Origin: Drechmeria coniospora
Taxonomy: Eukaryota > Ascomycota > Sordariomycetes > Hypocreales > Ophiocordycipitaceae
Direction: 5' to 3'
Length of the DNA stretch: 64,000 nt
Assembly: GCF_001625195.1 (NCBI RefSeq)
Contig: NC_054389.1
Location: 744,001-808,000 of the forward strand
This document shows positions 586 to 52,258 of the stretch, one piece after another; within the stretch, counting starts at the first letter, position 1, and each line of letters opens with the position of its first letter. The notes below the pieces were generated by a model. The model made no database searches. It was not told where the DNA came from and saw nothing but the letters and a program-made list of their open reading frames with translations. Position numbers and translations under genes: made by a program.

Positions 586-626
<41 letters not shown>

Positions 627-6276: not shown

Positions 6277-6507
6277 CGTGACGTAGCTGGCCCTTCACCA
6301 CGGCCGCAGGCGGTCCGCCATGACGCTTCAGGTGTGTAGATTGTACTGCGCAGTCAGACTTGCTCGTGGGCGAAAACGCGTCCGGTTGACGTTGAATATA
6401 ACATTTGAATCATAAAGGGGAATATTGGGCAGCCTGCCGCAACACCTACGATGTGCCTCCACTTTGATGACTGCGGCCGCTGCGACGAATCTATTGGCGC
6501 ACCCGGC

Positions 6508-12770: not shown

Positions 12771-14261
12771 AATTTTTATACCCCGTCATGCTTGCAGCAA
12801 CTCATTCATTCACGCCGCCATCGGACCAAGGCAGCCGGCGCTTTGTCCTGCGGTGTTCTTTTCCTCTCCTATTCTGGCTCGATACCACCGCCCCCCTCTT
12901 CCCGTCGATGGCCTACAAGATGCACCTTGGTCGCTTGGAAACGCCTCACTGTGCCTTGTGCCCATTTCTCGTCGCCGCAAGTACCCCACGACGAACCACG
13001 GGGCAATCGCCAGATCACGGTGATGGTGCCCTTGGTCCTGCGGAACAGCGGACTCGGCTCCCCTACAAATCTCATCGGCGGCTATGGAAGACGCCACTAT
13101 GCGCTGCCCATGTCCTGAGCCGCAGAGGATGCTGGGCCTGCAGGGAGTGTGAAAAAAAAAAGAGCATGGTTTCGGAGTGTCGAACGCGTAATTCCATAAT
13201 AACTCTTACAATTCCTTCTTGACCTGCTTGCCCTGCGAGGGCACGTACAGATAACAGGCAGGTCAAAGAACGGATGAGGCTGTGTCGCCAGTTCACGACA
13301 ACTGATTCAGTGTTGAGACCAGACAAGCCGCATCAAACTATTTGGAATAGTAGTCGACTGGTGTGCGCTTGACAAGGTCGCCTGTAATTATACACCTGCA
13401 AGAAGCTTAATAGCTTGTCGGCATGCGGAAAGTCTTCACTTGCGTACGGAGTACTCCGTAATAGATACTACTAGGTATTATTTACTGTAATTACTTACTC
13501 CGGACTCTGTACTCCGCATGTTCTCCGTAATTAGTTGTACGTGTATTAATTACCGTAAAGTACATATTAGGCACACACGGAGTACTTACATGCACTGCAA
13601 GTACAGTACTTACATGCACCGCAAGTACAGTACTTACATGCACTGCAAGTACAGTACTTACATGCACTGCAATTACAGTACTTACACTAGTACTTGCTAA
13701 CATAAGTACAACCTATGCCGAGTAATAGTCCTACTGCCCGTCCATGCTTAAGTTGGTGGGTGTGCCGAACTTGCGTAGTCTTGATGTACCTGTACACGTA
13801 CTTGCGCTGCAGGTACATATTACCTCGCTCAAGTACCGTGCTCTGCAATGTACACACATGTACAGTACACTGCGCAACGCTGCTCGCACGAGTTCATGTG
13901 CTGTACAATGAATGGTACGTCCAAGATCATCGCCAGAGAGCTTCTCCGGCTCCACCGGCGCCAAACCGAGCGTCGTCTCGGCTTTGGCCGTTCGTTGATG
14001 GTGTCCTCTGCAACGCTATAGTGATGACCCCGCCAAATCTCGCCCAGACGTCATCATCCCGGACCTCACTACCTGCAGCCGCCGCCGCAGCAAGGCTCCA
14101 TCGTCCATCCTTTCTCTCCATCTTCTCCATCTTCTCCCCATCTTCTCTGTAGAATATCGCAGCTGCTTCCCCCCCTCTCCCCTCGTCGCCCCGCCGCCTG
14201 CCCTTGATCGTCGACCGCCCGTCACCCTCGGCTCGCTCGCTCAGCAGGCTCGAAACCGTCT
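12771..14261. other. Intergenic region upstream of SEC1
   Basis: No gene is supported. It contains a GTACGGAGTACTCCGTA cluster at 13444, the 24-bp minisatellite at 13581-13690, many GTAC-containing words between 13440 and 13920, and a pyrimidine-rich segment at about 14090-14190 (TCTCCATCTTCTCCATC) just before the SEC1 start, a usual fungal promoter or leader feature. Confidence 0.65.
13581..13690. repeat. 24-bp minisatellite, 4 copies plus a partial
   Basis: Units begin AGTACTTACATGCA and end GCAAGTAC; the second copy has ACC for ACT and the fourth AAT for AAG. Each unit starts and ends with a piece of the AGTAC/GTAC words seen in the dispersed 11-mer, so the array probably grew out of such a site. 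There are no spacers, so it is not a CRISPR-like array. Confidence 0.85.
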
Positions 14262-30550: not shown

Positions 30551-33500
30551 ATGACGGCAAAGACCGGCTGCATGGTTGTCCTGGCCAGCCTGGCATCCAT
30601 GGCCATGCCGCTGCAACAGATGGAAGGTCCAACTGGGCAACTCCTTCCTCGCCTGCAAGTCCATGTCGGCCACTGTCCCGGGGCCAGTTTCTGCGTCGAC
30701 AAGATCTGCACCACAAACGTCGTCAACCTCGATCCCCTTCATTGCGGACCTGCTGGGCAGGCTTGCAAAGCAGGAGAGATCTGCGTTGTCGGCTCTTGCC
30801 TGCCGCTAAACATCAGCAGCCCAGCAACGGCAGCTGGCGGAGTCGAGGACTGCAGAACGGGACAATGGAGAGACGGCAAGGGTGATTGCCAACCGCTCCG
30901 AATCGCCCTCGACGCGAGACGCTGCGGCCCGCAGGAGAGAGTGTGCGACCCAGGACAGCTCTGTGTCAACGACGTCTGCGTCACCATCGACATCGGGGCC
31001 GATCCCAAGAGCTGCGGCGAGTCCGAATTCGCCTGTGAGCCGGGAAACTGGTGTTTCAACGGCACCTGCACCCCCTTCGAGCTGGGAACGAAATCGACCA
31101 AATGCCGCTGCGACGATGACTGCCCCCTCGGGTTTCCATGCGGAGACGGCCTTTGCCGTCAGATCAGCGTTACCACCGACCTAAACAGCTGTGGTCCGAA
31201 CGGGACGAGATGCCAACCAGGAGAGCTATGTCTTTCGGGCGCATGCCGGCCGGTCAACATCACGGAGGAGGATGCTCTGCACCGGGATTCGGCCGCATGT
31301 CGTGTTGGAGAAGCGAAGCTTCTGGACCGATGCTCCCCCATTTACATCGGGCTGGACCCGTCCCGCTGTGGCGACCATGCTGAGTGCGACGGTGCAGAGG
31401 TCTGCATTTCTGGTGCATGCGTCCGCGACGTTCACCATCCAGGGACCAATGTCGTACACTGCGGCCATGATGCCTGCTCCTGCGCCGTCGTCAAGATCGT
31501 CACCGTCACCGTCGTCGGTGGCCAAGATCCAGCCGACAAGAGCACCTCTGACGCCGGTAGTGCAGGAGCTGCTTCCTCCAGAGGCACTGATGGAAAAACG
31601 GCAAAAAGTGCGCAGAATACAGCTCTAGACACCGAGACAGCTAACCCAGACAATGCGACACAAAATACGTCCAAGACCGAGCGCCTGTACACGGAAGAAA
31701 CCGACATCAAGTCTGCCACTCCCAAGAGCGTCCGGCAAAACAACTCGGCTCAAAATGACGGGACTGATGCCATTGATACCGATAGTCCAGTATCAACCCG
31801 AATGCTATCCAGCATGATGGGAAATGAAGCCACTAGGACTGAGAGAAACGGGACGACAACTTGGCTGACAACGGGCAACGGGATCGGCGAGCCGCAAGGA
31901 ACCGCAAGCAAAGACACGGAAGCTCCGTCAAGCGGTGACACTGAGAGCACGACAAAATCTCCAGCACAGAGCGAGATCACATCTGAGGGTGGCGTTCCTC
32001 CATTAAGTGAACATCAGGGAACTGGCTCAACTTCGAAGAACACCGACGGCAGTGCGACGAATGCCGGACGCGAAACGAGAGTCACGACGAATGAAGAAAG
32101 TAGGCGCACATCTGGAGGCGAACAGCACACATTCAGTAGCCATTGGTCGGCCACCAGCGGTGAGAGGTCCATACGCACAATGCACGTAAACGACCCAGAG
32201 ACGACAGGCGCTACGGATTTCTCGCATTCGAACGACGGGAGCGAGAACACCTCGCAAAATGCCGGCGAGATCAGAAGTCAGAGCACCACTCTTAGCAATC
32301 AGCACACCAGAACAGAAATGTTTTCGAATACCATCGGCCATTCAACTAGTGCTAGAGCCGCCGGGAGCAACGCGAGTGATATTGAAGGAACCACATCTAC
32401 TACCATTGGAGCCGGCAAGAGTACCAGCAACAACGAAGCCATTGCCACCACAGGCACTGGGATGTCTAATAGTACTACTACCAGCATTCCAAGTACAATT
32501 GGTGATTCAGAACTACCCAAGTACTCTTCAAGAGCCTCCAGTGCAACTAATGAGAACGGAGAGGTCAAAAGTACCCGTGAGGGAGCCCCAAGAACCTCTG
32601 GCAGGACAACTTTGCAGACGAATTATAGTGGCAAAACCAATACCGAAGTCAACAAGACTACAAGTGAGATCGACCAGACATCTAGCACTAGAGAGATATT
32701 CACATTGGAAACTCGCTCAACTATAACTGAAGCGAATGCGTCTAAAGAAAGCAAAACCGAAGCTCAAACCCGCACTGAAGGAAGCCTGACAAGTACTAAA
32801 AATCCCGAAACAACCACAACGACAATCAGCACGAGTACAAAAGTGACCCAGTTCACGTTGATTGACGAAACAGGATGGATCAACAGGACTAGTGGCTCAC
32901 CTACAACCCAGGAGGCTCGAGTGCCAACTTCATCAACAGGAGAATTTTCTACTTTCAATAGTCTCAACTCCTGGAGTGGTGATCAAGGGCCCACAAGCAT
33001 GACCGAGGAATTGACACAAACTAGCGCAAATCAAGAGATGACTGGTGGTACGGAGACTGATCAGTCTATCAGCACCAGCAGTATGTTCTTGACCACCAGA
33101 GATGCCGGAGGAACTATCACGAGGAACGATGCTTCCTTAACTAGGGAGATAGCTTTTGAGTCTACATTTACGACAAACTTGCCCACTGCGGCAACGCAGG
33201 ACGGTAGCACGAGTGGTGATGGCAGAGTTAGGAGTACCACTACGGAAAAGCACGAGTCTACAAAAAGCGACGTTTCCAAGGAGGTCCAAATCACCAAAAT
33301 CGGTTTTGTAGCCACTACCAGAGACGTTGGAGAATCTACAACATCTACTGGCGTCTCTACAATCGAGACGGCCGATATCATTTTGAGTACCACTGAGGAA
33401 GTCGGGGGTCCTGCAAATAGGAGCAGCAGCTACAGAGCTGGAGAGACAGGGGCCTCAACCACTATCAATAATGCTCCAATCACTGCAAATCAAACGACAT

Positions 33501-36500: not shown

Positions 36501-39500
36501 TCAGCGACACCAGAAGACACACTACAGAAACCATCAATGACTCAGCAGAACATAGTATTGGCGATCGCAGTCACGTACAAACAGGTACTGGGGGTTCTGG
36601 GGAGAATACAATCGTCTCCACTTTGATACTTGGCACCTCCAATGCAGGGATTGGAACAATTGTCGGCACAGCAACGGTTACAGGGACCAAACCAACAGCT
36701 TCAATTATTGGCAAAGAGACCTCCAAAAATGATGATGAAGAAATTACGAGGACAGAAGTTCTGACGACTGAGATTTTAAGTGGCAATTGCAAGGAAACTA
36801 CATCTATTACCCCAACTACCGTGACTCCAAGTGGCTCTACTGAAGAGTCTACCTCAGGAGACACATCAGGAACCAATACCTCAGGCAGTACTGGTGAACA
36901 AGGCAAAACCTCAAGAGCCACGACTACAACAGCCTCCGCGGTTGAAACCTGGAGCGAAATGGATACCACGAGCTCGGGAATCTCGAAAGCTAGTACATCA
37001 GCCAGTACCATTACTGGAGATGAAGTTTCAAGAACTCCGACCGCCGAATCCATGTCAACGACAGAGGCTGTGAGCGGCACAGACGTGAAAGCTACAACTA
37101 AATCCTCAACCCAGACATCACGAGGCTCCAACAAAGACTCAAAAACATCAGCAATTACAAACTCAAGAGCCACAGAGACCGGGGGTTCCTCAAGAACTGG
37201 GACGCAGGATAACACCATCAATGAGGCCACACAATCGGGAACCATATTATCGTCTAAAACTGAGGGTGCAAGCGGAAATAGTGATAATCGTGCAACTTTC
37301 ACGCCCCTGGAAACGGAGATTTCAAGTAAGACTAGCGAAGTAGATACAGTCACCGGAGCTTCATCACCGACTCAGAGTTCAAGAGGGACCAGTGAAACCA
37401 TGACTACAACTGCAAATAGCGGAGCCTCATCAATGATTGCTAACTCAGGTAGCACTACAAAAGCGGTCACAACCTCAGGAACTACAGGGACCGAGACTTC
37501 ATCAACCACCTACAACATACCTGGCACTAGCAACAATGCAGCATACTGGACCTCAACTACTGAGCCCCTAAGCGATATTAGTATTGGAACTCCAGGCTCC
37601 GTGATTTCATTAACAGAGATTTCAAGCGCCGATGAAGGCACGGCCATTTCTTTAACTACAGCGGCCTTTTCAACAACTGAAACCCCAAGCAGTGCTAGTC
37701 TAGATAACACAGCCGCAGCTATTACCACTGGGACAACGTCAATAACTGAAACGTTAAACGCAAATACTGAAGGCACATTCAGACACTCAACGACCGAAAC
37801 CCCAAGAGACACCATTCTTAATATCACAACCTCCATGACCTCGACGACTGAGATATTAAGCGGCACTTCTAGCGATTCCAAAGAATTTCTTTCAACCACT
37901 GAGTTGGCGTACGGTACAAGCACTGGGTTTGCATCAACAGTATCTGTGACAGAGACACCCATTAGCAACAACGACATCACAACACCCAGGACCTCAAGAA
38001 GCAATAGCAATGAAGTGCCTATGAATACGTCGTATGGGTCTTTAAGTGATACAACTGAAACAGTCACAGCAACTGGAGTCCCATCAACGGCTCAGACCTC
38101 AAGCAGCATCAATATGAAATCTGACGCTACGTTTTCCATGACAGAAGTCTCAAGCGGCACTAACCTTGAGGTAACCATTGAAACTGCAATGTCGGAGGCA
38201 TCAAGTGATATCAGCGAAGGGATCAAAACGTCTGGACCCTCAACAACGAGCGGCCCCGGTAAAGAAACCACAGCCACTGAAGAGTTTTCAACAGCTTGGG
38301 TCCCTAGCAGCACTAGCGATGAAGCTGTACCCTCAGTCTCAACAAAACAATCGGCAAGTGGTACCTATTCGGGGGTGGTATCAACAATGGAAACCCCAAC
38401 TGAAAGCGGTGGCGAAGCGAACACCACCAAAACCTCAATGATTAAGACCTCTGGCAACCATAGTGACGAAGCCACATCTACTAGAGTTACATCAGCCACC
38501 TCCAGTGCAGAATCGATCTCTGTGTCCATGCCGACTCCAACCAGCAGCCGTGAAGAGGACCCATCAGGAGCCGTGGGGTCTCCAACTCTAAGCAGCGCTA
38601 GTGAAGTGGGAACGTCTGGGTCTTCATCAACGCTGGGGGCCCCAAGCAACACGAATGACTCCGTCACCCTTACTAGAGTTACATCAGGTACTGAGATTCC
38701 AAAGAGTTCCAGTACAGAATCGTTTTCTGTATCCATAAAGACACCAAGCCACAGCAGTGACGAGGCTACAGTAGGAGTCTTAACGTCTCAGACTTCAAGC
38801 AGCGCTAGCAAGGTGGTGACAGACTACAGGCCTTCATCAAGGTCGGGGGCGCCGAGCAGCACAAGTGACGAAGTCACTCCTACCAGAACCACAACAGCTA
38901 ATGAGCCTCCAAAGAGCTCTAGTGAAAAATCGAGCTCCGTATCCATACGGACCCCAAAAAACAGCAGTGACGAGGCTACAGCAGGAGCATCCACGTCTCA
39001 GACTCTAAGCAGCGATAGTGCAATGGTAACAAACTCCTGGCCGGCATCAACGCTGGGAGCTCTGAGCGGCACAAGTGACGAAGTCACTCCTACCAGAACT
39101 ACAACAGCTAATGAGCCTCCAAAGAGCTCCAGTGAAAAATCAAGCTCTGCATCCATACGGACCCCAAACAACAGCAGTGACGAGGCTACAGCAGGAGCCT
39201 CCACGTCTCAGACTCTAAGCAGCGCTAATGCAGTGGTAACAAACCCCTCACCGGCATCAACGCTGGGAGCTCTGAGCAGCACCAGGGAGCAAGACACATT
39301 CGCAATCCCCACGACCCAGATCCTAAGTAGCAATAGTGGAATGACTACATCAAGAATTTCATCGACTCAGATACGAAGCAGTACTACCGAAGAATTTTCA
39401 GCCTCTACAACATCCTCTTCTGACACAACAATCAGTATCAGCATTGAAGCTACATCAACATTGTTGACGTTGAAGTCTTCAGGGAACATTACTGAAGCGA

Positions 39501-42500: not shown

Positions 42501-45500
42501 ATCAGACTTGCGTTGGAACGGTCTGTCTCCCCACGCTGCTGGCGACTTGCGAGAGTGATTCTTCATGCGGAATCGGCCAGGTGTGCCGTCTCGACCGATG
42601 CATCCCCGACCTCCTTACTGTCTGCACATCCAACACGAACTGCAGTGCGGTCCAGACGTGCGTTGCCGGGCTATGCCTGTCACAGGTTTACCAGCCATGC
42701 ACAATAGGCCAGGACTGCAATAACGGCGAGGAATGCTTGGGCGGCTCGTGTCTTCGGAGCGGACTGCTGCATTGCCTGGTTGATGCTGACTGCGGTGCTG
42801 GCCAGCGGTGTATTGAGGGCGCTGTTTGCCTACCTGACATCCTCTCGTCCTGCACGTCGGATGAACAGTGCGGCTTTGGAAATGTGTGCAGGCTGGAAGT
42901 CTGCTTGCCGCGTACGCTGGCGAATTGCACTATTGATCAAGGCTGTGTTGACAGGTCCTTGGTCTGCAATGCTGGGTTCTGCCTCCCACCACTGTTCCCA
43001 CCATGCTCGGAGGAAGACGACTGCATTGAGGGGCAGACATGTACGGCAGGGATGACGTGCCTACCATCAGGGCTCGAGACGTGTCTGGTTCCAGATGGGC
43101 AATGCGGTGCCGATCAAACTTGCAGGAATGGAACCTGTCTTCCTACAGTCCTGCCCGCTTGTATCAACGACACCACATGTGGCAGCGAACAAATCTGCAG
43201 GTTGGGTTACTGCATACCCAAGGGGCTTGTCGTCTGCCAAAACGACAGTCAATGCGGAAACGGGGAGGGGTGCGTTGCCGGCATCTGTCTCCCCGAAGCA
43301 CTCCCTCCTTGCGCAGACGACGCCAACTGCGGTGAGGCAGATGTCTGTGCTGGCAGTGTTTGTCTTCCCGGCAATCTCACAGCTTGCGGTGGTGCGACCG
43401 ACCCGATCTGCGGCGAAGGCCAGACTTGTGTCGGAGGACGATGTCTACCAGCGAATCTGCCGGCGTGCGAAGACGATCATGGATGCAGCACAGGAAAGGT
43501 CTGCAGACTGGACTTATGCCTCCCCTCCAAACCCATTCTCTGTACCACGAACGGGACGGAATGTGTCGTTGCCGAGCTCGTCTGCTCGGGAGGTCTTTGC
43601 TTACCCTCGATTTACCCCCCCTGCATCATCAGCAGAGATTGCGATGCCACCTACGCCTGTCGATCGGGAACTTGCCTCCCTGAAACGTTGCCGGTATGCG
43701 GAATCGACGAGGACTGCGTTGGCGGCCGCCAGTGCGTCGGTAGTGTCTGTCTCCCCCCTATGCTTCCTGTGTGTGCGGCAGACGGCGACTGCGGCACGAG
43801 CCAAGTGTGTCGGCAGGACAGGTGCATTCCCTCTGAGCTCACAAGTTGCAACGCCACGGGAGATTGTGGTTCTCACCAGCGGTGCTCGGCCGGTCTGTGC
43901 ATCCCCGAGTTGCTACCACCGTGTTTGATATCTGGAGACTGCGGTAGAGGCGCGTTATGTCGCAACGGTACCTGCCTCCCAGACAAACTTCCCGCCTGCT
44001 CGTTCAGTGGAGAGCCTTGTGCTTCCGGCGACCAGAGATGCGTCGCTGGTGTGTGTGTCCCAAGCGACCTGCCAACCTGCGGCGTCGATGCTGACTGCGG
44101 CGCCGGCCGCGTCTGCCGTCTCGGACTTTGCTTCCCTAACGCGGCAACCACCTGCACGGCGGACAACCCATCCGCATGCGATGGTGGAGAATCGTGCAGA
44201 GGCGGTCTTTGCGTCCCCAAGGTCTTTGCGCACTGCTCAACAAGCGTAGATTGTCTCCGAGGCCAGGCGTGTACGGAGGGCGTGTGTATCCCGACCATCT
44301 TTTCCAACTGCACCGATACTTGCCCCGCGCAGCAGTCGTGCGTGTCCGGCATATGCCTGCCCTCGGCTCTTCCAGATTGCGACGCAGATACCGACTGCGG
44401 CAATCGGCAAGTCTGCCGGCTCGGGCGATGCATTCCCGCTTCCTTGGTACCCTGCCAGAATAGCAGCTCATGCAGTGATTACCAAGCCTGCACGGCGGGA
44501 CTCTGTCTTCCAGAGCTGTACTCGCCCTGCAGCGAGAGCGCAGATTGCGGCAGGGGAAAGACGTGCTCCAGCGGCCTCTGCTTCCCGTCGACGTTCGATA
44601 CGTGCGAGATCATCGATACTTGCAATCACGGCCAGATCTGTCTTCTTGGTAAATGCCTGCCCAGCACACTCCTGACATGTGAGGCGGATGCAGACTGCGG
44701 TGGGGGACATGTCTGCCGCGAGACGGTCTGCCTCCCGACAGATGTCCGACTTTGCGAGACAGATGAGCAGTGCGATATGACGCAGCGTTGCGAGGGTGGC
44801 CTCTGCCTTCCAGAACCATTTCCGCCATGTCAAGCAGAGAGCGACTGCGCCAAAGGGCTGGATTGCCGGTCCGGGACGTGCGTTCCTAGCACACTAAGGC
44901 AATGCGAGAGCCAAGGGGGGTGCGATGCCGATGAGATGTGCATCGATGGCGTTTGCTTTCCAGACTTCCTAGCCACGTGTTCCAACGACGGCCAGTGCGG
45001 AAGCGGCCAAGTCTGCAGATTGGGTGTTTGCATCCCCGAGACAACAACCAACTGCACTATGACGAGCACTTGCAACCAGGGCCAGGTCTGCGCTGCCGGA
45101 ATCTGCGTGCCCGAAATATTTCCCCCGTGCAACACAGCAGTGAACTGCAGTGCCGGACTGGTGTGCTCATCCGGCCGGTGCCTCCCAGACGTCTTCCCGC
45201 CTTGCGGCGCCAGCAACTCGTGCGGCATCGGCCGCATTTGTGCGGAGGGTCTCTGCGTGCCGGACCTGCTCCCTGCTTGCACCAACGACACCTCCTGCGG
45301 GAGCGGCACCATCTGCAGGCTTAGTGTCTGCCTACCAAAAACAATCACGTCCTGTGCTGATGGCAGCTCCTGCGGCACGGGTCTAGAGTGCGTCTCAGGC
45401 GTCTGCATGCCGCCGAGGTATCCGCCATGCGCCGGCGCCGATGCCGATTGTGGGGCCGGCCGAAGCTGCACCGGCGGCGTGTGCCTGCCGAGCCTGGTTC

Positions 45501-48500
45501 CGTCCTGCGCTGGAGGCAATTCCACCTGTGCCGTCGGAAACATCTGCATTTCAGGAGCCTGTTTGCCTGATGCGCTCGACGCCTGCACAGCGGATGTCCA
45601 GTGCTCCAGCGCTCAGGTCTGTAGGCTTGGCCGTTGCTTGCCCAATGTCCTCACGGCATGCGGTAACGGCACCGCAGGATGTACCGCTCCGCTCGTTTGC
45701 ACGGAAAGCATCTGCCTGCTTCCACCAATACCCCCTTGCACATCGGCCGGAGACTGTATCCAAGCCGACCGCTGCGTCACCGGCGTTTGTCTCCCCGACG
45801 GGCTCGTCAACTGCACCACGAGCGCAGGCTGCATCAACGGTCAGAGTTGCACCGAGGGCGTTTGTCTGCCCGGCCTGCTGCCGCCATGCTCGAGCGACGC
45901 GACGTGCACCGGCATTGGCCAGGTATGTCGTCTCGGCGTCTGCATGCCTGGCGACGTCACCGTCTGCTCCTCCTCGAGCCAGTGCGTCGGCGGCAAGACG
46001 TGCACGTTTGGAATATGCCTGCCTACCGTGTTGCCACCGTGCAGCGTCACGCAAGACTGCAGCGCAGGACAGGTCTGCCAGGCCGGTACCTGTCTCCCTC
46101 AAGGACTGTCCAACTGCACCAGCAGCATCCAGTGTACCGTTGGACGAGCGTGTATAGGGGGGGTCTGTCTCCCCGGTGACATACTTGCACCATGCACCAG
46201 CGACGCGGCATGTGCCACCTCGGACGTTTGTAGGATCGGTGTTTGCGTACCACGCAACTTGACGAGTTGCAAAACCGATGCGCAGTGTGACGGCAACGAT
46301 AGCACTTGCACCTTTGGCATATGCCTCCCCACAGCCTTTCCAGGATGCAACGACAACGCAACCTGTCCAGTTGGCGAGAGCTGCCTTTCAGGGACTTGCC
46401 TACCTGCAAGCATCGTCGGTTGCCGCGATAATGGGACATGTGCCGAAGCAAATCAGATCTGCTCAGCCGCTGGCGTGTGCGTACCCGGCCTGCTCAAGTC
46501 CTGCACGAACGACTCTGGGTGCGAATTTACCTCGGTATGCCGGCTAGGATTCTGCATGCCGAGAAACGTGACGGCCTGTACGAACGATGGCCAGTGTGCC
46601 CCTGAACAGTCGTGCTCCGGTGGCATCTGCCTTCCGATTCCGTTCCCCAACTGCAGCGAGGGGAGCTGCGATGTAACAGCAAACACGACATGCGTCTCCG
46701 GCGTCTGCATCCCCAACAACTCCATTCATGGGTGCGTAACGTCGGCCGATTGTGCAAGTCGCCAGGTGTGCACTTCGGGAATCTGTCTACCGCAAGCTTT
46801 ACCCAGCTGCGGCATCGACAGCGACTGTGACGAAAGCCTCACCTGTCGTTTAGGAACCTGCATTCCCGGTCTGCTCATCCCATGTGGCTCCACAGCCGCG
46901 TGCCGCGCTGGTCAAACGTGTGAAGGAGGGCTCTGCGTGCCCCAATCCGTCCTCTGCACCTCAGACTCGCAATGCGGTGCCAACAAGGTCTGCCGCGCCG
47001 GTCTTTGCCTTCCACAGTCTTTCCCAACATGCAGCCCAGAAAGCGGCTGCACCAGTGGTCAAAACTGCACCGCCGGCTTCTGCTTCCCTTCGATGCTTGA
47101 CAAGTGCGCCGATGCCGCCGACTGTCCTGCGAGCACACCCATATGCTCCGGAGGTATATGCATGACCGCAGGCCTTACAACATGCGCCGCCGATATCGAC
47201 TGTGGCGGTTCCGAGACATGCCGAATCGGCTTGTGCATCCCGACCACGTTGCTCAACTGCGAAGCCGATGGCGATTGCAACGGCGCGAACAGCGAGGTCT
47301 GCCGTGTGGGCCTCTGCGTTTCGACGTTGCAACGCTGCGTCAACAACGTCGACTGCAACGCCTCTGTCAGCGAGGTCTGCGCGCTCGGTTTCTGCCGTCC
47401 AAAACCGCCGCCCGAGTGTGTGCTGGACGCCGACTGCGGCTCCGGCCGCTTTTGCTCACTCGGCGTGTGCCTGGCGCAGACGCTCTCCTGTAGTGGCAAC
47501 ACGGGCTGTGCGGTCGGTCAAATATGCACCGTCGGCGTGTGCACGCCGGACATGGCATCGGCATCCTGCGGCACGAATGGTGATTGCCTCCTCGGCGTCG
47601 GGCTCTGCCGACTCGGACTCTGCATCTGCGTTCTGGGTGTTTGCGGCCTGGATCCATCACTCACAGGGTGCACATCGACGACCGACTGTCCCACGGCACA
47701 AACTTGCCAGAGCGGCGTCTGCATAGCCGAAAAGGCGTGCCAGAGCGCAACCGATTGCGTTCTCGGCCTCGACATGTGTCGCCTGCCGGGGCTGTGCGTC
47801 TGTCTTGATGGCGTCTGCGCCCTCGGCGGCTCGGCCACGCCGCAATGTGCTTCCGACAACGACTGCACCGGCGGCCAAGCCTGCCAGGGTGGTGTCTGCG
47901 TCGCTCCAGACCCGTCCTGTCGTGAGGATGAAGACTGCGTCGGCAAGGTCCTCGGTGCAGACACCTGCCTCGTCGGCTTATGCAGCTGCGCTGACATCTC
48001 GGCGCAGTGCGTCTACCACGGTCCAGCAGCATGCTCGACCGCCGCGCAGTGCAACGGCACCCAGATCTGCACGACCGGCCGCTGCGTGCCGGCGATTCCG
48101 GCCTGCGCCGTGGACGTCGACTGCGGTGCGCAAAAGATATGTCAGTTCGGAAGCTGCGTAACCGGCTGCCGCACGAGCGCCGACTGCGCCGTTGCTGGGT
48201 ATGTCTGCAAGCTAGGCTCCTGCGTGTCCGGGTGCGCCTCCAACGCCGGTTGTGCCGCCGCCCAGAGCTGCCAGTTCGGACTCTGCGTCGACAACACGCT
48301 CGCTTCATGCACCACGAGCTCGCAGTGCCAAGCAGGACTCGTCTGCCAGCTTGGCAAGTGCATCCCCAACATCCTCTCCTTATGTCTCGGCGACTCTCAG
48401 TGTCCGACTGGTCAGATCTGCCCCTCGGGCATCTGCGTCGGCTGCATTCTCGACGAGCAGTGCGGCGCCGGCCGTGCCTGTTCAGATGGGCTCTGCATCG

Positions 48501-51500
48501 CGAGTTCGACGCCGCCTTGCGCCCACGACTCCGACTGCTCCGGAGGCCACATCTGCCTCAACGGGCTTTGTCGCGGATGCACATCCTCGTCGCAGTGTGG
48601 CAACGGCCTCGTTTGCTCTTCCACCGCCCTCTCTTCGACCTCCTCTTCGGGCGTCTGCCAATCATGCACCGCCAGCTCTCAGTGTTCCGCCGGTCAGGTG
48701 TGCACCTCGACCGGCGCTTGTGGAGCCTGTTCCGGGACGGCGCCGTGCCCGACTGGCCAAGCTTGCATCGGCAGTCCCGGCGTCTGCGGGCCCTGCACCC
48801 AATCCTCCGACTGCGGCAGTAGCGGCATCGTCTGCAGCGCGGGCGTGTGCCAGCCCGGATGCACATCTGGCGCCCAGTGCAGCGCCGGCCAGGCCTGTGT
48901 CCTTGGTTTCTGCGGAGCCTGCGTCTCCAACAGCCAATGTCTCGCAGGTCAGGCTTGCCTTCTCCCGCCTGGTGTCTGCGGCTCCTGCACGGCAGACGCG
49001 CAGTGCGGCGTCGGCGAGATCTGCGAGTCTGGCAACTGCCAAGCGGCCTGCACGCTCAACGGCCAGTGTCCCACCGGGCTGTTCTGCTCCTCGGGCCGAT
49101 GCGCTGGCTGCACGCTCAACTCGCAATGCACGTCTGGCCAGGTGTGCGTCGATCATGCCTGCGGCGGATGCTCGAGCTCGGCCCAATGCGGAGCCGGCCT
49201 CGTCTGCGCCTCCGGTATCTGCCAAGCTGCGTGCACGAGCAACATCCAATGCGCCGCGGGCCAAGTCTGCGACACGGCGACCGGCCTCTGCGCCGCCTGC
49301 ACGCAAAATTCGCAGTGCGGCATCGGCCAGGTCTGCGCCACTCCGGGCGGCTGCGGCTCCTGCACGACCGACCTCCAGTGCGGCGCTGTCGGGTCGAACC
49401 AGATCTGCGCCGGGGGACTCTGCATCGGCGGCTGCATAGCAAGCCTCGGCTGCGCGACCGGACAGGTATGCCTGAACGGTCGTTGCGGTGTCTGCAGCGA
49501 TTCGGCGCAGTGCAACACGGCCGTCGGCCAGGCGTGCGTGTCCGGTTCGTGCGGCGCATGCACCCAAAAGGCCGACTGCGGCACCGGGAAAGCCTGCAGC
49601 GCGGGACGGTGCGTGGCAGCTTGCACCTCCAACACGCAGTGCGCCGTCGGAGCCGTCTGTCAGGTCTCGACGGGGCTCTGTACGACGTGCACGCAAAAGA
49701 GCGACTGCAGTACCGGTCAGGTATGCATCAGCAACCTCTGCGTCGCCTGCACGCTCAGCGCGCAGTGCGGCGGCGGCGGACAGGTCTGCGAAGCGGGCGT
49801 CTGCCGCGCCGGCTGCACATCCACCTCGCAGTGCAGCGGCGGCAAGGTGTGCGGCGGCGGGCTCTGCGTGCCGTGCGGCGTCAACGCCGACTGCGGGGCC
49901 GGTCAAGCGTGCCTCTCCGGCGCGTGCGGGGCCTGCGCCGCCGACCTCGAGTGCGGCGTCGGTCAGGTATGCGTGTCCAGCGCGTGCCAGCCCGCGTGCA
50001 CGACCAACCTGCAGTGCGGCGGAGGCCAGGTTTGCGTGACGGCGACGGGTCGATGCGGCGCCTGTACCGGAACGGCGCAGTGCGACACCGGTCTCGCCTG
50101 CGTCGGCAACGCCTGCGGGAGCTGTACCCAAAAGTCGGATTGCCTGACGGGCCAGGTCTGCGCCGCCGGCCTCTGCATCGCCGCCTGCACGTCCAACTCG
50201 CAGTGTCTGGCGGGCCAGGTATGCCGCGCCGACGGGACCTGCGGCTCCTGCAGCAACAGCGGCGACTGCAACGCCGGACAGCTCTGCAACACCTCGACCG
50301 GCCTCTGTGCCGGCTGCTCCTCCACCAACGCGTGCCCGAGCGGCCAGTCGTGCGATAGCAGGTCCTCGCTGTGCGCTCCCACCTGCGCCCTCATTGGCGG
50401 CACCTGCGCGGGAGGTCGCCTCTGTCTCGTAGGCCTATGCGTCGGCTGCTCTTCCAACACCCAGTGCCGCACCGGCCAGGCTTGCCTCCTCGGCATCTGC
50501 ACCATCTGCATCGCCGACGCGCAGTGCGGTGCCGGACAGAGCTGTCGCGGCGGAGCGTGCGTGAGCACCTGCACGGCCAACGCGCAATGCAGCAGCGGCC
50601 AGGTCTGCTCCTCGGGCGTCTGCGCGCCGTGCACCTTGACCTCGCAGTGCGACGCGGCAAGGATCTGCTACTTGGGCTCCTGCGGCTTATGCACGGCCAG
50701 CTCCCAGTGCGCTTCGGGAAAGTACTGCAGCAGCGCCGGCGTCTGCGTCACCGGCTGCGCGTCGAGATCCGATTGCGCCAGCGGTCGCGTCTGCCTCGAC
50801 GGGCTCTGCGTCGCTTGCTCCTCCGGCTCGCAATGCACCAGCGGCCAGGTCTGCTCCTCCGGGAGCTGCAGCGCCTGCTCGACCGACGCCCAGTGTAGCG
50901 CCATCGTCGCCGGCCAGATCTGCAGCAGCGGCGGCGCCTGCGTTCCCGGCTGTTCCCAGAGCGTGCCCTGCTCCAACGGACAAGTCTGCTCGAACGGCCG
51001 CTGTGGAGGCTGCACGGCGGCATCCGAATGCCCGACCGGAAATGTCTGCACCTCCGGAAGCTGCGGGGGTTGCACGGCCGATGCGCAATGCGGGTCCGGC
51101 TTCGTTTGCGGCAACGGCCTCTGCATCGCCGCCTGCGCGTCCGGCAACGACTGCGGCGGCGGTCAGCAGATTTGCTCGGCCGGCCACTGCGTCGCCTGCA
51201 CCGCCTCGTCCCAGTGCGGCACCGGCCAGGTCTGCAACGCCGGCGTCTGCGGCGCCTGTACGGCCGATGCTCAGTGCAGCGCCATCCTCGCCGGCCAGGT
51301 CTGCAGCAGCAGCGCCGGCGTCTGCGTCGCAGGCTGCGCCTCCAACGCCGCCTGCACGGAAGGAAAAGTGTGCTCGGGAGGTCGCTGCATCGCGTGCTCG
51401 TCGGGCTCGCAGTGCAACGCTGGACAAGTCTGCACGTCCGGCACCTGCGGCGCATGCACGACCGACGCCGAATGCGGTGCCATGACGGCTGGTCAGGTCT

Positions 51501-52258
51501 GTAACGTTGGCCTCTGCACCGCCGGTTGCCTCTCCAGCACGTCCTGCTCCAACGGCGAAGTCTGCGTCGGCGGCCGTTGCGGCCCGTGTACCGGGGACGC
51601 GCAATGCGCCCTCGGCCAGGTCTGCCTGTCCGGAAAGTGCAGCGCTTGCACGAGCAGCACGCAGTGCGCCTCCGGTACCGTCTGCAGCGGCGGTCTATGC
51701 ATACAAGCATGCGCAACCAACGCCGGTTGCAGCAACGGAAAGATCTGCCAAGCCGGACTCTGCATCGCCTGCTCGTCCTCCTCACAGTGCACCTCCGGCC
51801 AGGTGTGCAGCTCGGGGACATGCGGCGCCTGCACCACGGACGCCCAGTGCAGCAGCATCACGGCGGGCCAAATCTGCAGCGGCAGCCTATGCGTAGCAGG
51901 CTGCACCCTCGATTCGTCCTGCTTCGACGGTCAAGTGTGCCTGAGCGGCCGATGCAGCGCATGCACGGCCAGCACCCAGTGTAGCGGGGGTCGAGTTTGC
52001 TCATCTGGAAAGTGTGGCACTTGCTCTTCGGCTTCGCAGTGCGACTCTGGTCAAGTTTGCAGCGGTGGTCTCTGCAAGTCATGCTCGACCAGCTCTCAGT
52101 GTGGCACGAACCAGGTCTGCTCGGGCGGTTCTTGTCAGACCCGCCAGTGTGGCAACACAAACGATTGCACCATAAACTTTGGCCTTTGCGCCCTCGGAAT
52201 CTGCATCTGCCTCAACGGCCTCTGTCTGACCAACTTGCTGAGCGTGTCGATCAGTTGA
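30551..52258 (+). CDS. Giant secreted Ser/Thr-rich, cysteine-repeat protein (7,235 aa), adhesin-like
   Basis: One uninterrupted 21.7-kb reading frame from an ATG at 30551. Residues 1-22 look like a signal peptide (hydrophobic CMVVLASLASMAMPL). Residues of about 30-310 hold N-terminal cysteine modules of about 40 residues (CGxxGxxCxxGExCxxGxCxP). Residues of about 317-3880 are almost wholly Ser, Thr, Gly, Glu and Asn, mucin-like, with tandem arrays. From residue 3884 to about 7226 there are well over a hundred four-cysteine modules (C-x5/6-C-x5-C-x4-C), first linked by CLPxxLxxC spacers, later tightly packed (CGACTADAQC). They resemble Dickkopf N-terminal or similar small disulfide modules; no catalytic domain is visible. 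There is no hydrophobic C-terminal tail, so a GPI or membrane anchor is unlikely. The S/T part is AT-richer and repetitive, the Cys part GC-rich. Role inferred: extracellular adhesin or coat. Hidden frame-neutral introns or a multi-gene model cannot be excluded. Confidence 0.85.
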   Translation: MTAKTGCMVVLASLASMAMPLQQMEGPTGQLLPRLQVHVGHCPGASFCVDKICTTNVVNLDPLHCGPAGQACKAGEICVVGSCLPLNISSPATAAGGVEDCRTGQWRDGKGDCQPLRIALDARRCGPQERVCDPGQLCVNDVCVTIDIGADPKSCGESEFACEPGNWCFNGTCTPFELGTKSTKCRCDDDCPLGFPCGDGLCRQISVTTDLNSCGPNGTRCQPGELCLSGACRPVNITEEDALHRDSAACRVGEAKLLDRCSPIYIGLDPSRCGDHAECDGAEVCISGACVRDVHHPGTNVVHCGHDACSCAVVKIVTVTVVGGQDPADKSTSDAGSAGAASSRGTDGKTAKSAQNTALDTETANPDNATQNTSKTERLYTEETDIKSATPKSVRQNNSAQNDGTDAIDTDSPVSTRMLSSMMGNEATRTERNGTTTWLTTGNGIGEPQGTASKDTEAPSSGDTESTTKSPAQSEITSEGGVPPLSEHQGTGSTSKNTDGSATNAGRETRVTTNEESRRTSGGEQHTFSSHWSATSGERSIRTMHVNDPETTGATDFSHSNDGSENTSQNAGEIRSQSTTLSNQHTRTEMFSNTIGHSTSARAAGSNASDIEGTTSTTIGAGKSTSNNEAIATTGTGMSNSTTTSIPSTIGDSELPKYSSRASSATNENGEVKSTREGAPRTSGRTTLQTNYSGKTNTEVNKTTSEIDQTSSTREIFTLETRSTITEANASKESKTEAQTRTEGSLTSTKNPETTTTTISTSTKVTQFTLIDETGWINRTSGSPTTQEARVPTSSTGEFSTFNSLNSWSGDQGPTSMTEELTQTSANQEMTGGTETDQSISTSSMFLTTRDAGGTITRNDASLTREIAFESTFTTNLPTAATQDGSTSGDGRVRSTTTEKHESTKSDVSKEVQITKIGFVATTRDVGESTTSTGVSTIETADIILSTTEEVGGPANRSSSYRAGETGASTTINNAPITANQTTWQKGSTNTSATNFLTSTITGDTTTEHDEPTSVTLNDGRSTSVVDFTFVTGETVETTTFSIETALTASETGEPSTSSVTSTTTDTTENTSGSEQSSTTRRNQQHNSFGEAPSDAPGTMTENNFTSSSTVEETGVSTSSSGAITTETTGMTTIKYPTTTATGETDGKTSSSGTIASDTARNTSGNNTNISAVSETGGMTSNGDETATDTTASTTRNDTTISTVRDIEGIPSTTATDTTGTVAESKKTAGTTIRSNPNPTGTTGITTGSSSIISTVLETEGTTSSSGTKLTDSTGSATGMGTTSSTRGETDRVASSSGAEGTGTPLSTTGNTTISTVRTTEGITRKSGVAGTETTRTAAGNDATISSIMETEGTISSSGTIAAELTGTVTGNNTTSSAVRETGGTTSSGGTTVTYETPESAMTSRNPTSAPATSGTPPVGDSTTGTVLTREATIGTIPTEDSITATTSTTRLFTGDGDTIDTSMRTLATRDASTLDLTTGTSATETTTTETSSTEVLTTALYSTRDSTAEGSTTGHLTSGVSTNESLTTQTSTNLGISTITRSFTGHKEILLSTMESSTDGLSDGSISSRSDRAASTGLFDEVTTTTEALAQTSGTKSSIGTTTFVEGGEFKTSTGNSAETSGTQGDVSTTTGDSEEITTTPSKISIIESSNSDTGQETTTAMQSQENTISTGFSTTQTKSETNSEGGITPKDPTMTSRTFVASSETISTRNWFSSSSGRSTTTTVELVSSNSDETTTARKSEIGTISANSSTTQTASDASIEGEAYTKSSTTSNKPSADDNGTSSGTATTANESEYATSSTGESKTESTNSARSESTRTATESEKATRITEIMATTTQTSSTTSEGSTGHSVSTEPMVAIPDSTTTTETSSETNIEHSSSTIRSEELFKTTRSFDKNGTTSERATTDIGPVEGTITAGTSASSDSTIEISSGTISESTQITGASTSTARSSVKVSSTSSESFTTDEDSRETPFTSAASTTVMISDTRRHTTETINDSAEHSIGDRSHVQTGTGGSGENTIVSTLILGTSNAGIGTIVGTATVTGTKPTASIIGKETSKNDDEEITRTEVLTTEILSGNCKETTSITPTTVTPSGSTEESTSGDTSGTNTSGSTGEQGKTSRATTTTASAVETWSEMDTTSSGISKASTSASTITGDEVSRTPTAESMSTTEAVSGTDVKATTKSSTQTSRGSNKDSKTSAITNSRATETGGSSRTGTQDNTINEATQSGTILSSKTEGASGNSDNRATFTPLETEISSKTSEVDTVTGASSPTQSSRGTSETMTTTANSGASSMIANSGSTTKAVTTSGTTGTETSSTTYNIPGTSNNAAYWTSTTEPLSDISIGTPGSVISLTEISSADEGTAISLTTAAFSTTETPSSASLDNTAAAITTGTTSITETLNANTEGTFRHSTTETPRDTILNITTSMTSTTEILSGTSSDSKEFLSTTELAYGTSTGFASTVSVTETPISNNDITTPRTSRSNSNEVPMNTSYGSLSDTTETVTATGVPSTAQTSSSINMKSDATFSMTEVSSGTNLEVTIETAMSEASSDISEGIKTSGPSTTSGPGKETTATEEFSTAWVPSSTSDEAVPSVSTKQSASGTYSGVVSTMETPTESGGEANTTKTSMIKTSGNHSDEATSTRVTSATSSAESISVSMPTPTSSREEDPSGAVGSPTLSSASEVGTSGSSSTLGAPSNTNDSVTLTRVTSGTEIPKSSSTESFSVSIKTPSHSSDEATVGVLTSQTSSSASKVVTDYRPSSRSGAPSSTSDEVTPTRTTTANEPPKSSSEKSSSVSIRTPKNSSDEATAGASTSQTLSSDSAMVTNSWPASTLGALSGTSDEVTPTRTTTANEPPKSSSEKSSSASIRTPNNSSDEATAGASTSQTLSSANAVVTNPSPASTLGALSSTREQDTFAIPTTQILSSNSGMTTSRISSTQIRSSTTEEFSASTTSSSDTTISISIEATSTLLTLKSSGNITEANTSRELPNPETTRSASEDDFSRTVTTRALSITSDMSESATSTAQISKVTIKATTATEYSSMFGSDTMSNDATQEFSSKAITLRSSSDEAINASSTSQSPGSYIKTFTTTEASLFSETPRSSSNEATSRGSLKAPTSSTNDEAISGTLTLSGTTEAATSGGSTTESSGTDNDKSSEASYTTQSLGDSSEVATSESPSTMSSTGASTDATADVTSTIQNSSDTRNEAASERSTTKSSTNHATSNYVASSNASTITHNSRGISEVATSGSTINGLSSIIATNNEGSSTTNAIQTSSGTRNDVSTRSSMTISSTGTDASTMNGLSSIIATNDGSSSATNAIQTSSGTSNDATTRSSITISSTGADASTMNGSSSIIATNNGSSSTTNAIQTSSGTSNDATTRSSMTISSTGTDAGTMNGSSSIIATNDGSSSATNSIQTSRGTSNNATTKSSMTKSSTGTNTSTKDGFPSNPATNTEATSALSMMQTSRGASNDATTGSSTTKSSTGTDTNTKNGFPSNTATNTEDTSTSSTMQSSSGISNDATTKSSMTKSSTGTETSTMNGSSSIIATNDGSSSATNAIQTSGGTSNDATTGSSITKLSTGTDTSTKNGFPSNIATNTVANGTSSMMQTSRGASNDATTGSSMTKSSTGADINTTNESPRNTVTNNEATSASIMMPTSRETSEETISGASRIASSSTNTGEDAITGFTSTAEAPSGTAIGDVTTKKQHGSSNGYITSRDMETTVSSDTGEEPSSGTQKTESTRDTSTPSMTLGSSSAPQISSHTNAETTASEVLPMTESLRSTASSAASQMVDAPSSADGATSEASSTTKTVNTAAEGTESETETRETPSGRSQVSTTLGVSSGIQTSRESSEVTTTTRGNSDKTTSSSKIETAGASTPTENCYPSCVNSSVCVGGICRLPCNAAVDCIDGAICIDNFCTSNKTCTSDGECGDGVCVAGRCKAIVYPPCTLSGNCTDGESCISDFCLPTSLTACLRNNTCAAHQTCVGTVCLPTLLATCESDSSCGIGQVCRLDRCIPDLLTVCTSNTNCSAVQTCVAGLCLSQVYQPCTIGQDCNNGEECLGGSCLRSGLLHCLVDADCGAGQRCIEGAVCLPDILSSCTSDEQCGFGNVCRLEVCLPRTLANCTIDQGCVDRSLVCNAGFCLPPLFPPCSEEDDCIEGQTCTAGMTCLPSGLETCLVPDGQCGADQTCRNGTCLPTVLPACINDTTCGSEQICRLGYCIPKGLVVCQNDSQCGNGEGCVAGICLPEALPPCADDANCGEADVCAGSVCLPGNLTACGGATDPICGEGQTCVGGRCLPANLPACEDDHGCSTGKVCRLDLCLPSKPILCTTNGTECVVAELVCSGGLCLPSIYPPCIISRDCDATYACRSGTCLPETLPVCGIDEDCVGGRQCVGSVCLPPMLPVCAADGDCGTSQVCRQDRCIPSELTSCNATGDCGSHQRCSAGLCIPELLPPCLISGDCGRGALCRNGTCLPDKLPACSFSGEPCASGDQRCVAGVCVPSDLPTCGVDADCGAGRVCRLGLCFPNAATTCTADNPSACDGGESCRGGLCVPKVFAHCSTSVDCLRGQACTEGVCIPTIFSNCTDTCPAQQSCVSGICLPSALPDCDADTDCGNRQVCRLGRCIPASLVPCQNSSSCSDYQACTAGLCLPELYSPCSESADCGRGKTCSSGLCFPSTFDTCEIIDTCNHGQICLLGKCLPSTLLTCEADADCGGGHVCRETVCLPTDVRLCETDEQCDMTQRCEGGLCLPEPFPPCQAESDCAKGLDCRSGTCVPSTLRQCESQGGCDADEMCIDGVCFPDFLATCSNDGQCGSGQVCRLGVCIPETTTNCTMTSTCNQGQVCAAGICVPEIFPPCNTAVNCSAGLVCSSGRCLPDVFPPCGASNSCGIGRICAEGLCVPDLLPACTNDTSCGSGTICRLSVCLPKTITSCADGSSCGTGLECVSGVCMPPRYPPCAGADADCGAGRSCTGGVCLPSLVPSCAGGNSTCAVGNICISGACLPDALDACTADVQCSSAQVCRLGRCLPNVLTACGNGTAGCTAPLVCTESICLLPPIPPCTSAGDCIQADRCVTGVCLPDGLVNCTTSAGCINGQSCTEGVCLPGLLPPCSSDATCTGIGQVCRLGVCMPGDVTVCSSSSQCVGGKTCTFGICLPTVLPPCSVTQDCSAGQVCQAGTCLPQGLSNCTSSIQCTVGRACIGGVCLPGDILAPCTSDAACATSDVCRIGVCVPRNLTSCKTDAQCDGNDSTCTFGICLPTAFPGCNDNATCPVGESCLSGTCLPASIVGCRDNGTCAEANQICSAAGVCVPGLLKSCTNDSGCEFTSVCRLGFCMPRNVTACTNDGQCAPEQSCSGGICLPIPFPNCSEGSCDVTANTTCVSGVCIPNNSIHGCVTSADCASRQVCTSGICLPQALPSCGIDSDCDESLTCRLGTCIPGLLIPCGSTAACRAGQTCEGGLCVPQSVLCTSDSQCGANKVCRAGLCLPQSFPTCSPESGCTSGQNCTAGFCFPSMLDKCADAADCPASTPICSGGICMTAGLTTCAADIDCGGSETCRIGLCIPTTLLNCEADGDCNGANSEVCRVGLCVSTLQRCVNNVDCNASVSEVCALGFCRPKPPPECVLDADCGSGRFCSLGVCLAQTLSCSGNTGCAVGQICTVGVCTPDMASASCGTNGDCLLGVGLCRLGLCICVLGVCGLDPSLTGCTSTTDCPTAQTCQSGVCIAEKACQSATDCVLGLDMCRLPGLCVCLDGVCALGGSATPQCASDNDCTGGQACQGGVCVAPDPSCREDEDCVGKVLGADTCLVGLCSCADISAQCVYHGPAACSTAAQCNGTQICTTGRCVPAIPACAVDVDCGAQKICQFGSCVTGCRTSADCAVAGYVCKLGSCVSGCASNAGCAAAQSCQFGLCVDNTLASCTTSSQCQAGLVCQLGKCIPNILSLCLGDSQCPTGQICPSGICVGCILDEQCGAGRACSDGLCIASSTPPCAHDSDCSGGHICLNGLCRGCTSSSQCGNGLVCSSTALSSTSSSGVCQSCTASSQCSAGQVCTSTGACGACSGTAPCPTGQACIGSPGVCGPCTQSSDCGSSGIVCSAGVCQPGCTSGAQCSAGQACVLGFCGACVSNSQCLAGQACLLPPGVCGSCTADAQCGVGEICESGNCQAACTLNGQCPTGLFCSSGRCAGCTLNSQCTSGQVCVDHACGGCSSSAQCGAGLVCASGICQAACTSNIQCAAGQVCDTATGLCAACTQNSQCGIGQVCATPGGCGSCTTDLQCGAVGSNQICAGGLCIGGCIASLGCATGQVCLNGRCGVCSDSAQCNTAVGQACVSGSCGACTQKADCGTGKACSAGRCVAACTSNTQCAVGAVCQVSTGLCTTCTQKSDCSTGQVCISNLCVACTLSAQCGGGGQVCEAGVCRAGCTSTSQCSGGKVCGGGLCVPCGVNADCGAGQACLSGACGACAADLECGVGQVCVSSACQPACTTNLQCGGGQVCVTATGRCGACTGTAQCDTGLACVGNACGSCTQKSDCLTGQVCAAGLCIAACTSNSQCLAGQVCRADGTCGSCSNSGDCNAGQLCNTSTGLCAGCSSTNACPSGQSCDSRSSLCAPTCALIGGTCAGGRLCLVGLCVGCSSNTQCRTGQACLLGICTICIADAQCGAGQSCRGGACVSTCTANAQCSSGQVCSSGVCAPCTLTSQCDAARICYLGSCGLCTASSQCASGKYCSSAGVCVTGCASRSDCASGRVCLDGLCVACSSGSQCTSGQVCSSGSCSACSTDAQCSAIVAGQICSSGGACVPGCSQSVPCSNGQVCSNGRCGGCTAASECPTGNVCTSGSCGGCTADAQCGSGFVCGNGLCIAACASGNDCGGGQQICSAGHCVACTASSQCGTGQVCNAGVCGACTADAQCSAILAGQVCSSSAGVCVAGCASNAACTEGKVCSGGRCIACSSGSQCNAGQVCTSGTCGACTTDAECGAMTAGQVCNVGLCTAGCLSSTSCSNGEVCVGGRCGPCTGDAQCALGQVCLSGKCSACTSSTQCASGTVCSGGLCIQACATNAGCSNGKICQAGLCIACSSSSQCTSGQVCSSGTCGACTTDAQCSSITAGQICSGSLCVAGCTLDSSCFDGQVCLSGRCSACTASTQCSGGRVCSSGKCGTCSSASQCDSGQVCSGGLCKSCSTSSQCGTNQVCSGGSCQTRQCGNTNDCTINFGLCALGICICLNGLCLTNLLSVSIS
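33880..34725 (+). repeat. Degenerate 31-codon tandem repeats in the Ser/Thr region
   Basis: About eight diverged copies of a unit of roughly 31 residues with the core TISTVxETEGTTSSSGT and spacers rich in Thr, Gly and Ala. Copies differ at many positions, so the array is older than the 144-bp array further on. Confidence 0.6.
38470..39290 (+). repeat. 210-bp in-frame tandem repeats in the Ser/Thr region
   Basis: Exact 210-base spacing is seen for the word ACAAGTGACG (38861 and 39071) and its variant at 38651. The 70-residue unit includes SDEVTPTRTTTANEPPKSSS, IRTPxNSSDEATAG and STSQTLSS. There are three copies at 210 bases plus an older, 192-base first copy. The last two copies are nearly identical. 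Confidence 0.85.
40304..41545 (+). repeat. 144-bp in-frame tandem array, 8.6 copies
   Basis: Unit of 48 codons, starting at residue 3252, with the pattern MNGxSSIIATNxGSSS, AIQTSSGTSNDATTRSS and MTxSSTGTDAST. Eight full copies keep perfect 144-base phase (40304 to 41455), followed by a partial, diverged copy. Two unit subtypes alternate: one with NGSSSIIATN and one with NGFPSNxATNT. Subtype mixing indicates unequal exchange or conversion between copies. Confidence 0.92.
42200..47560 (+). repeat. Cysteine-module region A: modules with CLP linkers in a four-module super-repeat
   Basis: Modules of about 25 residues have the form C-x5/6-C-x5-C-x4-C-L/I-P-x5-C. From residue 4000 (42548) to 5420 (46808) every fourth module has VCRLGxCxP in place of TCVGGxCLP; I followed this through 56 modules, 14 full super-repeats of about 101 residues. 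The module after it usually ends in a PP (as in YPPC or LPPC) before the next cysteine. The phase breaks down after about residue 5440. Confidence 0.85.
47570..52220 (+). repeat. Cysteine-module region B: compact modules without CLP linkers
   Basis: Modules shorten to about 17-22 residues, typically CxxxxQCxxGQVCxxGxCxxC, dominated by Ala, Ser, Gly, Thr and Gln. Recurrent variants carry an insertion (CSAILAGQVC, CGAMTAGQVC, CSSITAGQIC), which again suggests a multi-module unit. A distinct module, GLCxLGxCICLxGxC, occurs at the A/B boundary (about 47600 and 47770) and once more at the extreme C-terminus (about 52180), like caps. Confidence 0.8.

Follow-up and report, generated by a model that had tools for sequence, protein, structure and literature searches.

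The window analysed here is a 64,000-nt stretch of Drechmeria coniospora DNA, free of any N, that corresponds to positions 744001-808000 of the first contig of the host assembly that we searched (32.8 Mb, 28 contigs). A single open frame occupies 30551..52258 on the forward strand and encodes a protein of 7,235 amino acids in 7,235 codons, with a mass of ~724 kDa before glycosylation. In 100 dinucleotide-preserving shuffles read in six frames, no open run exceeded 392 codons, the maxima averaging 222. The five remaining real frames of the ORF DNA carry 80-389 stops each. Four rows of tandem repeats lie inside the ORF with periods of 15, 210, 144 and 432 nt, each a multiple of three, and a scan for fungal consensus introns, run without a shuffle control, returned a single 148-nt pattern in the ORF interior. 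The giant open frame is real. A first-pass annotation had described it from the letters alone, and its coordinates, frame and length were exact. The parts of the encoded protein and the neighbouring genes are listed in Table 1.

Of 20 neighbouring ORFs scanned, 10 had a Pfam match, and the neighbours of the giant ORF appear to be ordinary fungal genes. We note two further features of the window. A tandem array with a 24-nt unit (4.4 copies, 96% matches) lies at 13581-13686, and an ORF at 9520-10881 (-) with Pfam matches to Caps_synth and Gly_transf_sug likely encodes a glycosyltransferase, ~20 kb from the gene of the glycosylation-site-rich giant protein. No tRNA genes or Rfam families were found in the window.

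Table 1. Features of the giant ORF and its neighbours, in window coordinates.
Feature	Position	Strand	Residues	Description
Apparent signal peptide	30551..30610	+	~1-20	Hydrophobic stretch after MTAKTG, read by eye
N-terminal cysteine region	30674..31483	+	42-311	Pattern scan, Pfam Stig1
Ser/Thr stalk	31541..42190	+	331-3880	3,550 residues by chosen boundary
Implied intron of RJ55_06436	31730..31785	+		56 nt, donor GTCCGG, ends model at 406 aa
Tandem array in stalk	38729..39282	+		Period 210 nt, 2.6 copies
Tandem array in stalk	40298..41510	+		Period 144 nt, 8.1 copies to 41462; higher order 432 nt
Bead chain part 1, modules 1-71	42200..47542	+	3884-5664	~25-residue unit, four-module super-repeat
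Transition, modules 72-76	47567..48010	+	5673-5820	Six-cysteine modules 72, 74, 76
Bead chain part 2, modules 77-140	48032..52135	+	5828-7195	Short linkers
C-terminal six-cysteine cap, module 141	52148..52225	+	7200-7225	Hydrophobic
Ten-residue tail and stop codon	52226..52258	+
Ubiquitin-activating enzyme E1 gene	Upstream of giant ORF	Opposite		Pfam
Exonuclease V gene	Downstream, ~430 nt off	Convergent with giant ORF		Pfam
Sec1, Eap1, DEAD-box helicase genes	Elsewhere in window			Pfam

Architecture of the encoded protein

The first 330 residues contain 36 cysteines, one of them inside the apparent signal peptide. A pattern scan resolved six modules of approximately C-x(5,6)-C-x5-C-x4-C in this region, most of them C-x6-C-x5-C-x4-C, separated by joins of mostly 11 residues, two of which carry an additional cysteine pair. 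Pfam Stig1 (PF04885; cut-off 24.1) matched three stretches of the N-terminal half with a score of 33.1 bits, the best stretch being residues 117-174. When the N-terminus was searched against the sequences of solved structures, Dickkopf-4 (E 0.006 and 0.023) and scytovirin (E 0.049) were returned.

The stalk that follows is mucin-like, with 42.7% Ser+Thr, a single Cys, 52 N-glycosylation sequons and a pI of 4.5, and the Ser/Thr share of the giant protein reaches 48% in its richest 300-residue window. Its repeats gave a dN/dS of 0.54 by the Nei-Gojobori method (28/28 pairs). A long Ser/Thr stalk with repeats is a feature of GPI-anchored stalk adhesins, and it is present here. The third-position GC of the stalk is low (0.41), in contrast to 0.67-0.82 in the beads and 0.68-0.84 in four neighbouring genes.

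Beyond the stalk, the 572 cysteines of residues 3884-7225 were parsed into 141 modules, 137 with four cysteines and 4 with six, and the spacing is exactly 5-5-4 in 93 of the 141. Since the parser takes cysteines in order, we place weight on the regular spacing that continues through to the end and not on the zero remainder alone. The first-pass annotation had named N-terminal cysteine modules, a Ser/Thr stalk of about 3,560 residues and more than a hundred small cysteine modules, and all three elements were recovered, the stalk being marginally shorter by the boundary chosen here.

Two regimes can be distinguished along the bead chain. The unit of part 1 is mostly C-x5-C-x5-C-x4-C followed by a seven-residue linker, which is found in 63 of the 69 modules from 3 to 71. 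The signature CR + L/I/Q/E marks 16 of modules 1-68: fifteen recur at intervals of exactly four (6, 10, 14 ... 62), and the remaining one is module 67. Among modules 4-66, 21 contain CR as such, and 15 of these are in the four-module phase. Mean identity between part 1 modules, calculated for 18-residue modules only and with cysteines excluded, was 0.298, 0.274 and 0.291 at lags of 4, 8 and 12 and 0.18-0.23 at the remaining lags to 11. In part 2 the linkers are mixed through module 83 and then measure 2-3 residues up to module 139. They follow a 3-2-2 order in 51 of 51 modules from 88 to 138 and in 54 of 56 from 84 to 139; both this order and the CR signature were picked after viewing the data and counted afterwards. 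Identity in part 2 was 0.305-0.395 by lag, highest at 9 and 6, with lag 3 (0.335) not singled out. Three of the six-cysteine modules (72, 74, 76) sit at the boundary of the two regimes and the fourth ends the protein, and modules 72 and 141 are identical at 14 of 26 positions. These super-repeats suggest that the bead chain likely grew as four-module and three-module blocks were duplicated, the cap being a distinct addition.

Nei-Gojobori dN/dS values for the beads were 0.39 in part 1 (lag 4, 30 pairs) and 0.60 in part 2 (lag 3, 19 pairs), with 0.48 (lag 3) and 0.54 (lag 6) in late part 2, and pN was below pS in all 5 comparisons made over beads and stalk repeats. Because synonymous sites in the beads are near saturation (pS 0.57-0.72) and the pairs are not independent, the range of 0.39-0.60 lends mild support. 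We regard the long regular cysteine spacing as the stronger argument for coding constraint.

The bead half (residues 3884-7235) was matched by Pfam DUF7107 (PF23416) with 359.4 bits in 41 stretches, against a cut-off of 24.6. For Dickkopf_N (PF04706, cut-off 25) the same half scored 19.9 bits, and in the genome scan two single places reached 25.6 and 25.0. Dickkopf_N was therefore dropped as the main bead family in favour of the far better scoring DUF7107. The family pointer of the first-pass annotation (Dickkopf_N and related) has to be revised: by Pfam score the beads fall in DUF7107 and the N-terminus in Stig1, while Dickkopf_N itself is borderline. No enzyme domain was recognised in the Pfam scan, in agreement with the first reading. 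DUF7107 was absent from the literature searched, and Dickkopf combined with Hypocreales returned nothing there.

We predicted two bead segments with AlphaFold. The input alignments had 14 and 11 non-overlapping rows, drawn from the repeats of this protein itself and not from independent homologues. One hairpin per module is predicted, in 8 of 8 and 11 of 11 modules, with mean pLDDT values of 80.0 and 81.7. The description of the bead part as a 'rod' in the first-pass annotation goes beyond these data, since pTM values of 0.46-0.52 do not fix the orientation of successive modules. The sequence search against solved structures returned one 25-residue peptide (E 0.086) for bead part 1 and nothing at E 0.1 for part 2, and a re-test reported no folds other than knottins within Foldseek's own list.

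The C-terminus consists of a six-cysteine module followed by ten residues. The first-pass annotation saw no anchor, and a classic GPI tail is not evident, but the C-terminal module is hydrophobic. The mean hydropathy of the last 20 residues is 1.66, and of all 19-residue windows the twelve with the highest hydropathy (up to 2.31) fall in modules 72 and 141 or immediately behind them. Because internal module 72 is built alike, we read the C-terminal hydrophobic stretch as a module; given its hydropathy, it may also act as a GPI-type or membrane anchor signal. In the Pfam scan, at E up to 1, neither a ligand-binding nor a chitin-binding family was recognised, a result that speaks against the fibre reading proposed below.

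The public gene model and relatives of the modules

In public data the 7,235-codon frame stands as a model of 406 residues. A protein-database search with residues 1-330, covering lengths of ~180-580 aa, returned one match, 'hypothetical protein RJ55_06436 [Drechmeria coniospora]' (406 aa). RJ55 names belong to the Swe2 reference genome of D. coniospora (PMC7500977), whose gene set was built with Augustus and transcripts and in which the authors expect some models to need correcting (PMC4859500). Compared position by position, residues 1-393 differ from RJ55_06436 by a single substitution, A74T. This near-identity points to a D. coniospora genome, probably of another isolate, or to a very close relative. 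The host thus belongs to the Ophiocordycipitaceae and so to Hypocreales, the order that the first-pass annotation had in mind. After residue 393 the model departs from the giant frame, and its last 13 residues are encoded in this window from 31786 onward in a different frame, so that the model must remove the 56 nt from 31730 to 31785. Without this splice the frame continues for 6,842 further codons. To judge from the sequence, a 56-nt intron with donor GTCCGG is implausible and RJ55_06436 cuts the gene short: it represents the first 393 residues of the same gene, but the stalk and the beads are absent from it. In the available text of the strain papers, RJ55_06436 is not named (PMC10512298 has no occurrence of 'RJ55', and the 3 in PMC7500977 are all RJ55_06485).

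Among the best-scoring candidates in the host genome, no paralogue beyond the giant ORF was found at E 0.001. The host genome yielded 16 matches to DUF7107, 2 to Dickkopf_N and one each to Stig1 and to residues 1-330, all of them inside the giant ORF. The protein-database searches accepted lengths of 0.55-1.75 times the query, that is ~3,980-12,660 aa for the whole bead part and ~845-2,690 aa for bead part 2. Within the former range no full-length version of the giant protein was found, and the whole bead part matched two giant proteins at 28 and 32% identity. Bead part 2 gave 83 matches at 23-46% identity; an organism was named for 10, all Myxococcota or Deltaproteobacteria. No fungal relative was found in these searches, which covered the protein database within the length limits and, among fungal genomes, the host's own.

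The bacterial DUF7107 or cysteine-rich repeat proteins, from Myxococcota and metagenomes, share tandem four-cysteine modules with the giant protein, with runs of 42 in P0013 and of 50 in P0035 and P0059, but those retrieved lack a Ser/Thr stalk, have shorter runs and carry other partner domains. Counted with a simple pattern, the longest run among the 86 retrieved proteins was 50. Applied to the giant protein, this pattern counted 147 modules, N-terminal ones included; the longest run there was 74, since the pattern is interrupted at six-cysteine modules. The highest Ser/Thr share of a 300-residue window was 32% among 85 retrieved proteins (P0003, the gene's own fragment, being set aside), as against 48% here. 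None of the 86 combined a mucin stalk with a bead chain, within the length limits of the searches. The giant protein is built from known module families (DUF7107, Stig1), the combination of stalk and bead chain not having been seen elsewhere within the searches made.

Several of the retrieved proteins have features of their own. P0001 and P0002 (4,933 and 7,894 aa) are bacterial-looking giants in which similar cysteine modules form clusters that flank other repeat domains or lie between them. P0014 (1,052 aa) has tandem cysteine modules, and its precomputed Pfam matches are to what we take to be the ubiquitin, fibrinogen C-terminal, Dickkopf_N and DUF7107 families. P0075 (1,868 aa) looks eukaryotic and combines EF-hand-type matches, DUF7107-type modules and long charged stretches.

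Proposed function and its rivals

We propose that the gene encodes a secreted protein with an extended stalk and a disulfide bead chain, held at the cell or spore surface as a long coat or adhesive fibre, a reading drawn from the sequence that we consider evenly poised. The protein would enter the secretory pathway, where the stalk would be O-mannosylated and so kept extended, and the beads would fold with two disulfides each, or three in the six-cysteine modules, into a compact, protease-resistant chain. It might then be retained at the surface by terminal modules that bind the wall, by disulfide links, or by the hydrophobic C-terminal module as an anchor signal. As a long coat or adhesive fibre it would hold one cysteine-rich end off the wall. 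O-glycosylated mucins extend 0.2-0.25 nm per residue. On such per-residue mucin values the stalk alone could be 0.7-0.9 micrometres long, and the bead chain would add further length to this span. By the logic of fungal stalk adhesins, and loosely like BAD1, a long surface fibre or coat would be the likeliest role.

If RJ55_06436 were correct, the real product would be a secreted Stig1 protein of 406 residues, and the remaining frame would be untranslated or translated only with the intron retained. The model was indeed deposited at 406 aa, but it requires a 56-nt intron with donor GTCCGG, and the 6,842 unspliced codons hold 141 regular modules and triplet-sized repeats that untranslated DNA would hardly preserve; we therefore judge a short product very improbable. 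Acquisition of the bead region from a Myxococcota-like bacterium, followed by its joining to a fungal stalk, seems to us most unlikely too. It would account for bead part 2 matches that are bacterial or unnamed, with 10 of 10 named organisms in Myxococcota or Deltaproteobacteria, yet identities of 23-46% across Cys/Gly-rich repeats are a weak sign of descent. The module theme also occurs at the N-terminus, which matches the beads in pairwise BLASTP (E 4e-07, between Cys-rich sequences), and the third-position GC of the beads (0.67-0.82) resembles that of four neighbouring genes (0.68-0.84).

The main rival to an adhesive fibre is a protective coat of wall or mucilage, in which the beads would shield the hypha or spore from host proteases and from the fungus's own lytic enzymes, much as QID74 does. 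The dense cysteines of the beads are consistent with such a coat, as is the precedent of QID74 itself, a secreted Cys-rich repeat protein described as binding chitinase and protecting the wall (PMC13170347). The QID74 repeat, however, is absent here (8/13 mismatches) and nothing in the giant protein indicates a target enzyme, and we regard a purely protective role as possible at a low probability. That the protein is a poly-inhibitor, each bead being a knottin-like unit that binds a protease of the host or of the fungus, appears to us quite improbable.

D. coniospora, a nematode-killing fungus, serves in the study of C. elegans immunity, where infection starts with spores that stick to the cuticle (PMC4859500). 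Since the spores attach to the nematode by an adhesive bud (PMC4859500), an adhesive fibre is an attractive reading, offered as a proposal only. It is rather unlikely, on our estimate, that the giant protein is a main, lineage-specific fibre protein of this bud, overlooked through the 406-residue gene model. The attachment candidates given in the available text of PMC4792172 and PMC4859500 are lectins, ALS-like, CFEM, GLEYA and hydrophobic-surface-binding proteins, hydrophobins and a Mad1 orthologue; they carry DCS_ or g-number names, and the giant gene may be among them under such a name. No paper on adhesive fibrils of D. coniospora was found in the literature searched. Expression of the full gene in spores would make it a testable attachment candidate, since a cassette has reportedly been inserted at a selected locus of D. 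coniospora (PMC4859500).

Comparison with known fungal surface proteins

Stig1, WSC and mucin families are reported among the secreted proteins of nematode-trapping fungi (PMC3828140), and nothing recognisable as the giant gene occurs in the available part of that source. Ser/Thr stalks are common in fungal adhesins, in which the stalk carries a binding end off the wall (PMC6023273). Mad1-type adhesins of Metarhizium and nematode-trapping fungi, which are implicated in attachment to animal cuticle, resemble the giant protein in being secreted and in having Thr-rich repeats. Homologues of Mad1 carry a CFEM domain together with a GPI site (PMC4778117), whereas here a GPI signal is not evident and CFEM is absent: the Pfam scan found none and a CFEM spacing pattern had no match, and we rejected membership of the Mad1 group.

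Trichoderma QID74 shares with the giant protein secretion and tandem Cys-rich repeats, and is wall-associated and likewise from a filamentous ascomycete. Its 59-residue repeat, which includes a tridecapeptide, is present 13 times (PMC13170347); the best match to this tridecapeptide over all positions of the giant protein had 8/13 mismatches, and membership of QID74 / SCREP was also rejected.

Blastomyces BAD1 (WI-1) resembles the giant protein in its secretion and its long tandem Cys-containing repeats. BAD1 lacks a GPI signal and, once secreted, attaches to the surface again (PMC6023273), and in the giant protein, too, a classic GPI tail is not evident. The repeats themselves differ. In BAD1 a 24-residue unit bearing 2 Cys and 4 Trp is repeated 30-40 times, and the protein ends in a chitin-binding EGF-like domain, whereas the giant protein has 141 modules with 4 or 6 Cys, so that it lacks the BAD1-type repeat, adds a stalk of 3,550 residues and has no such end domain that was recognised.
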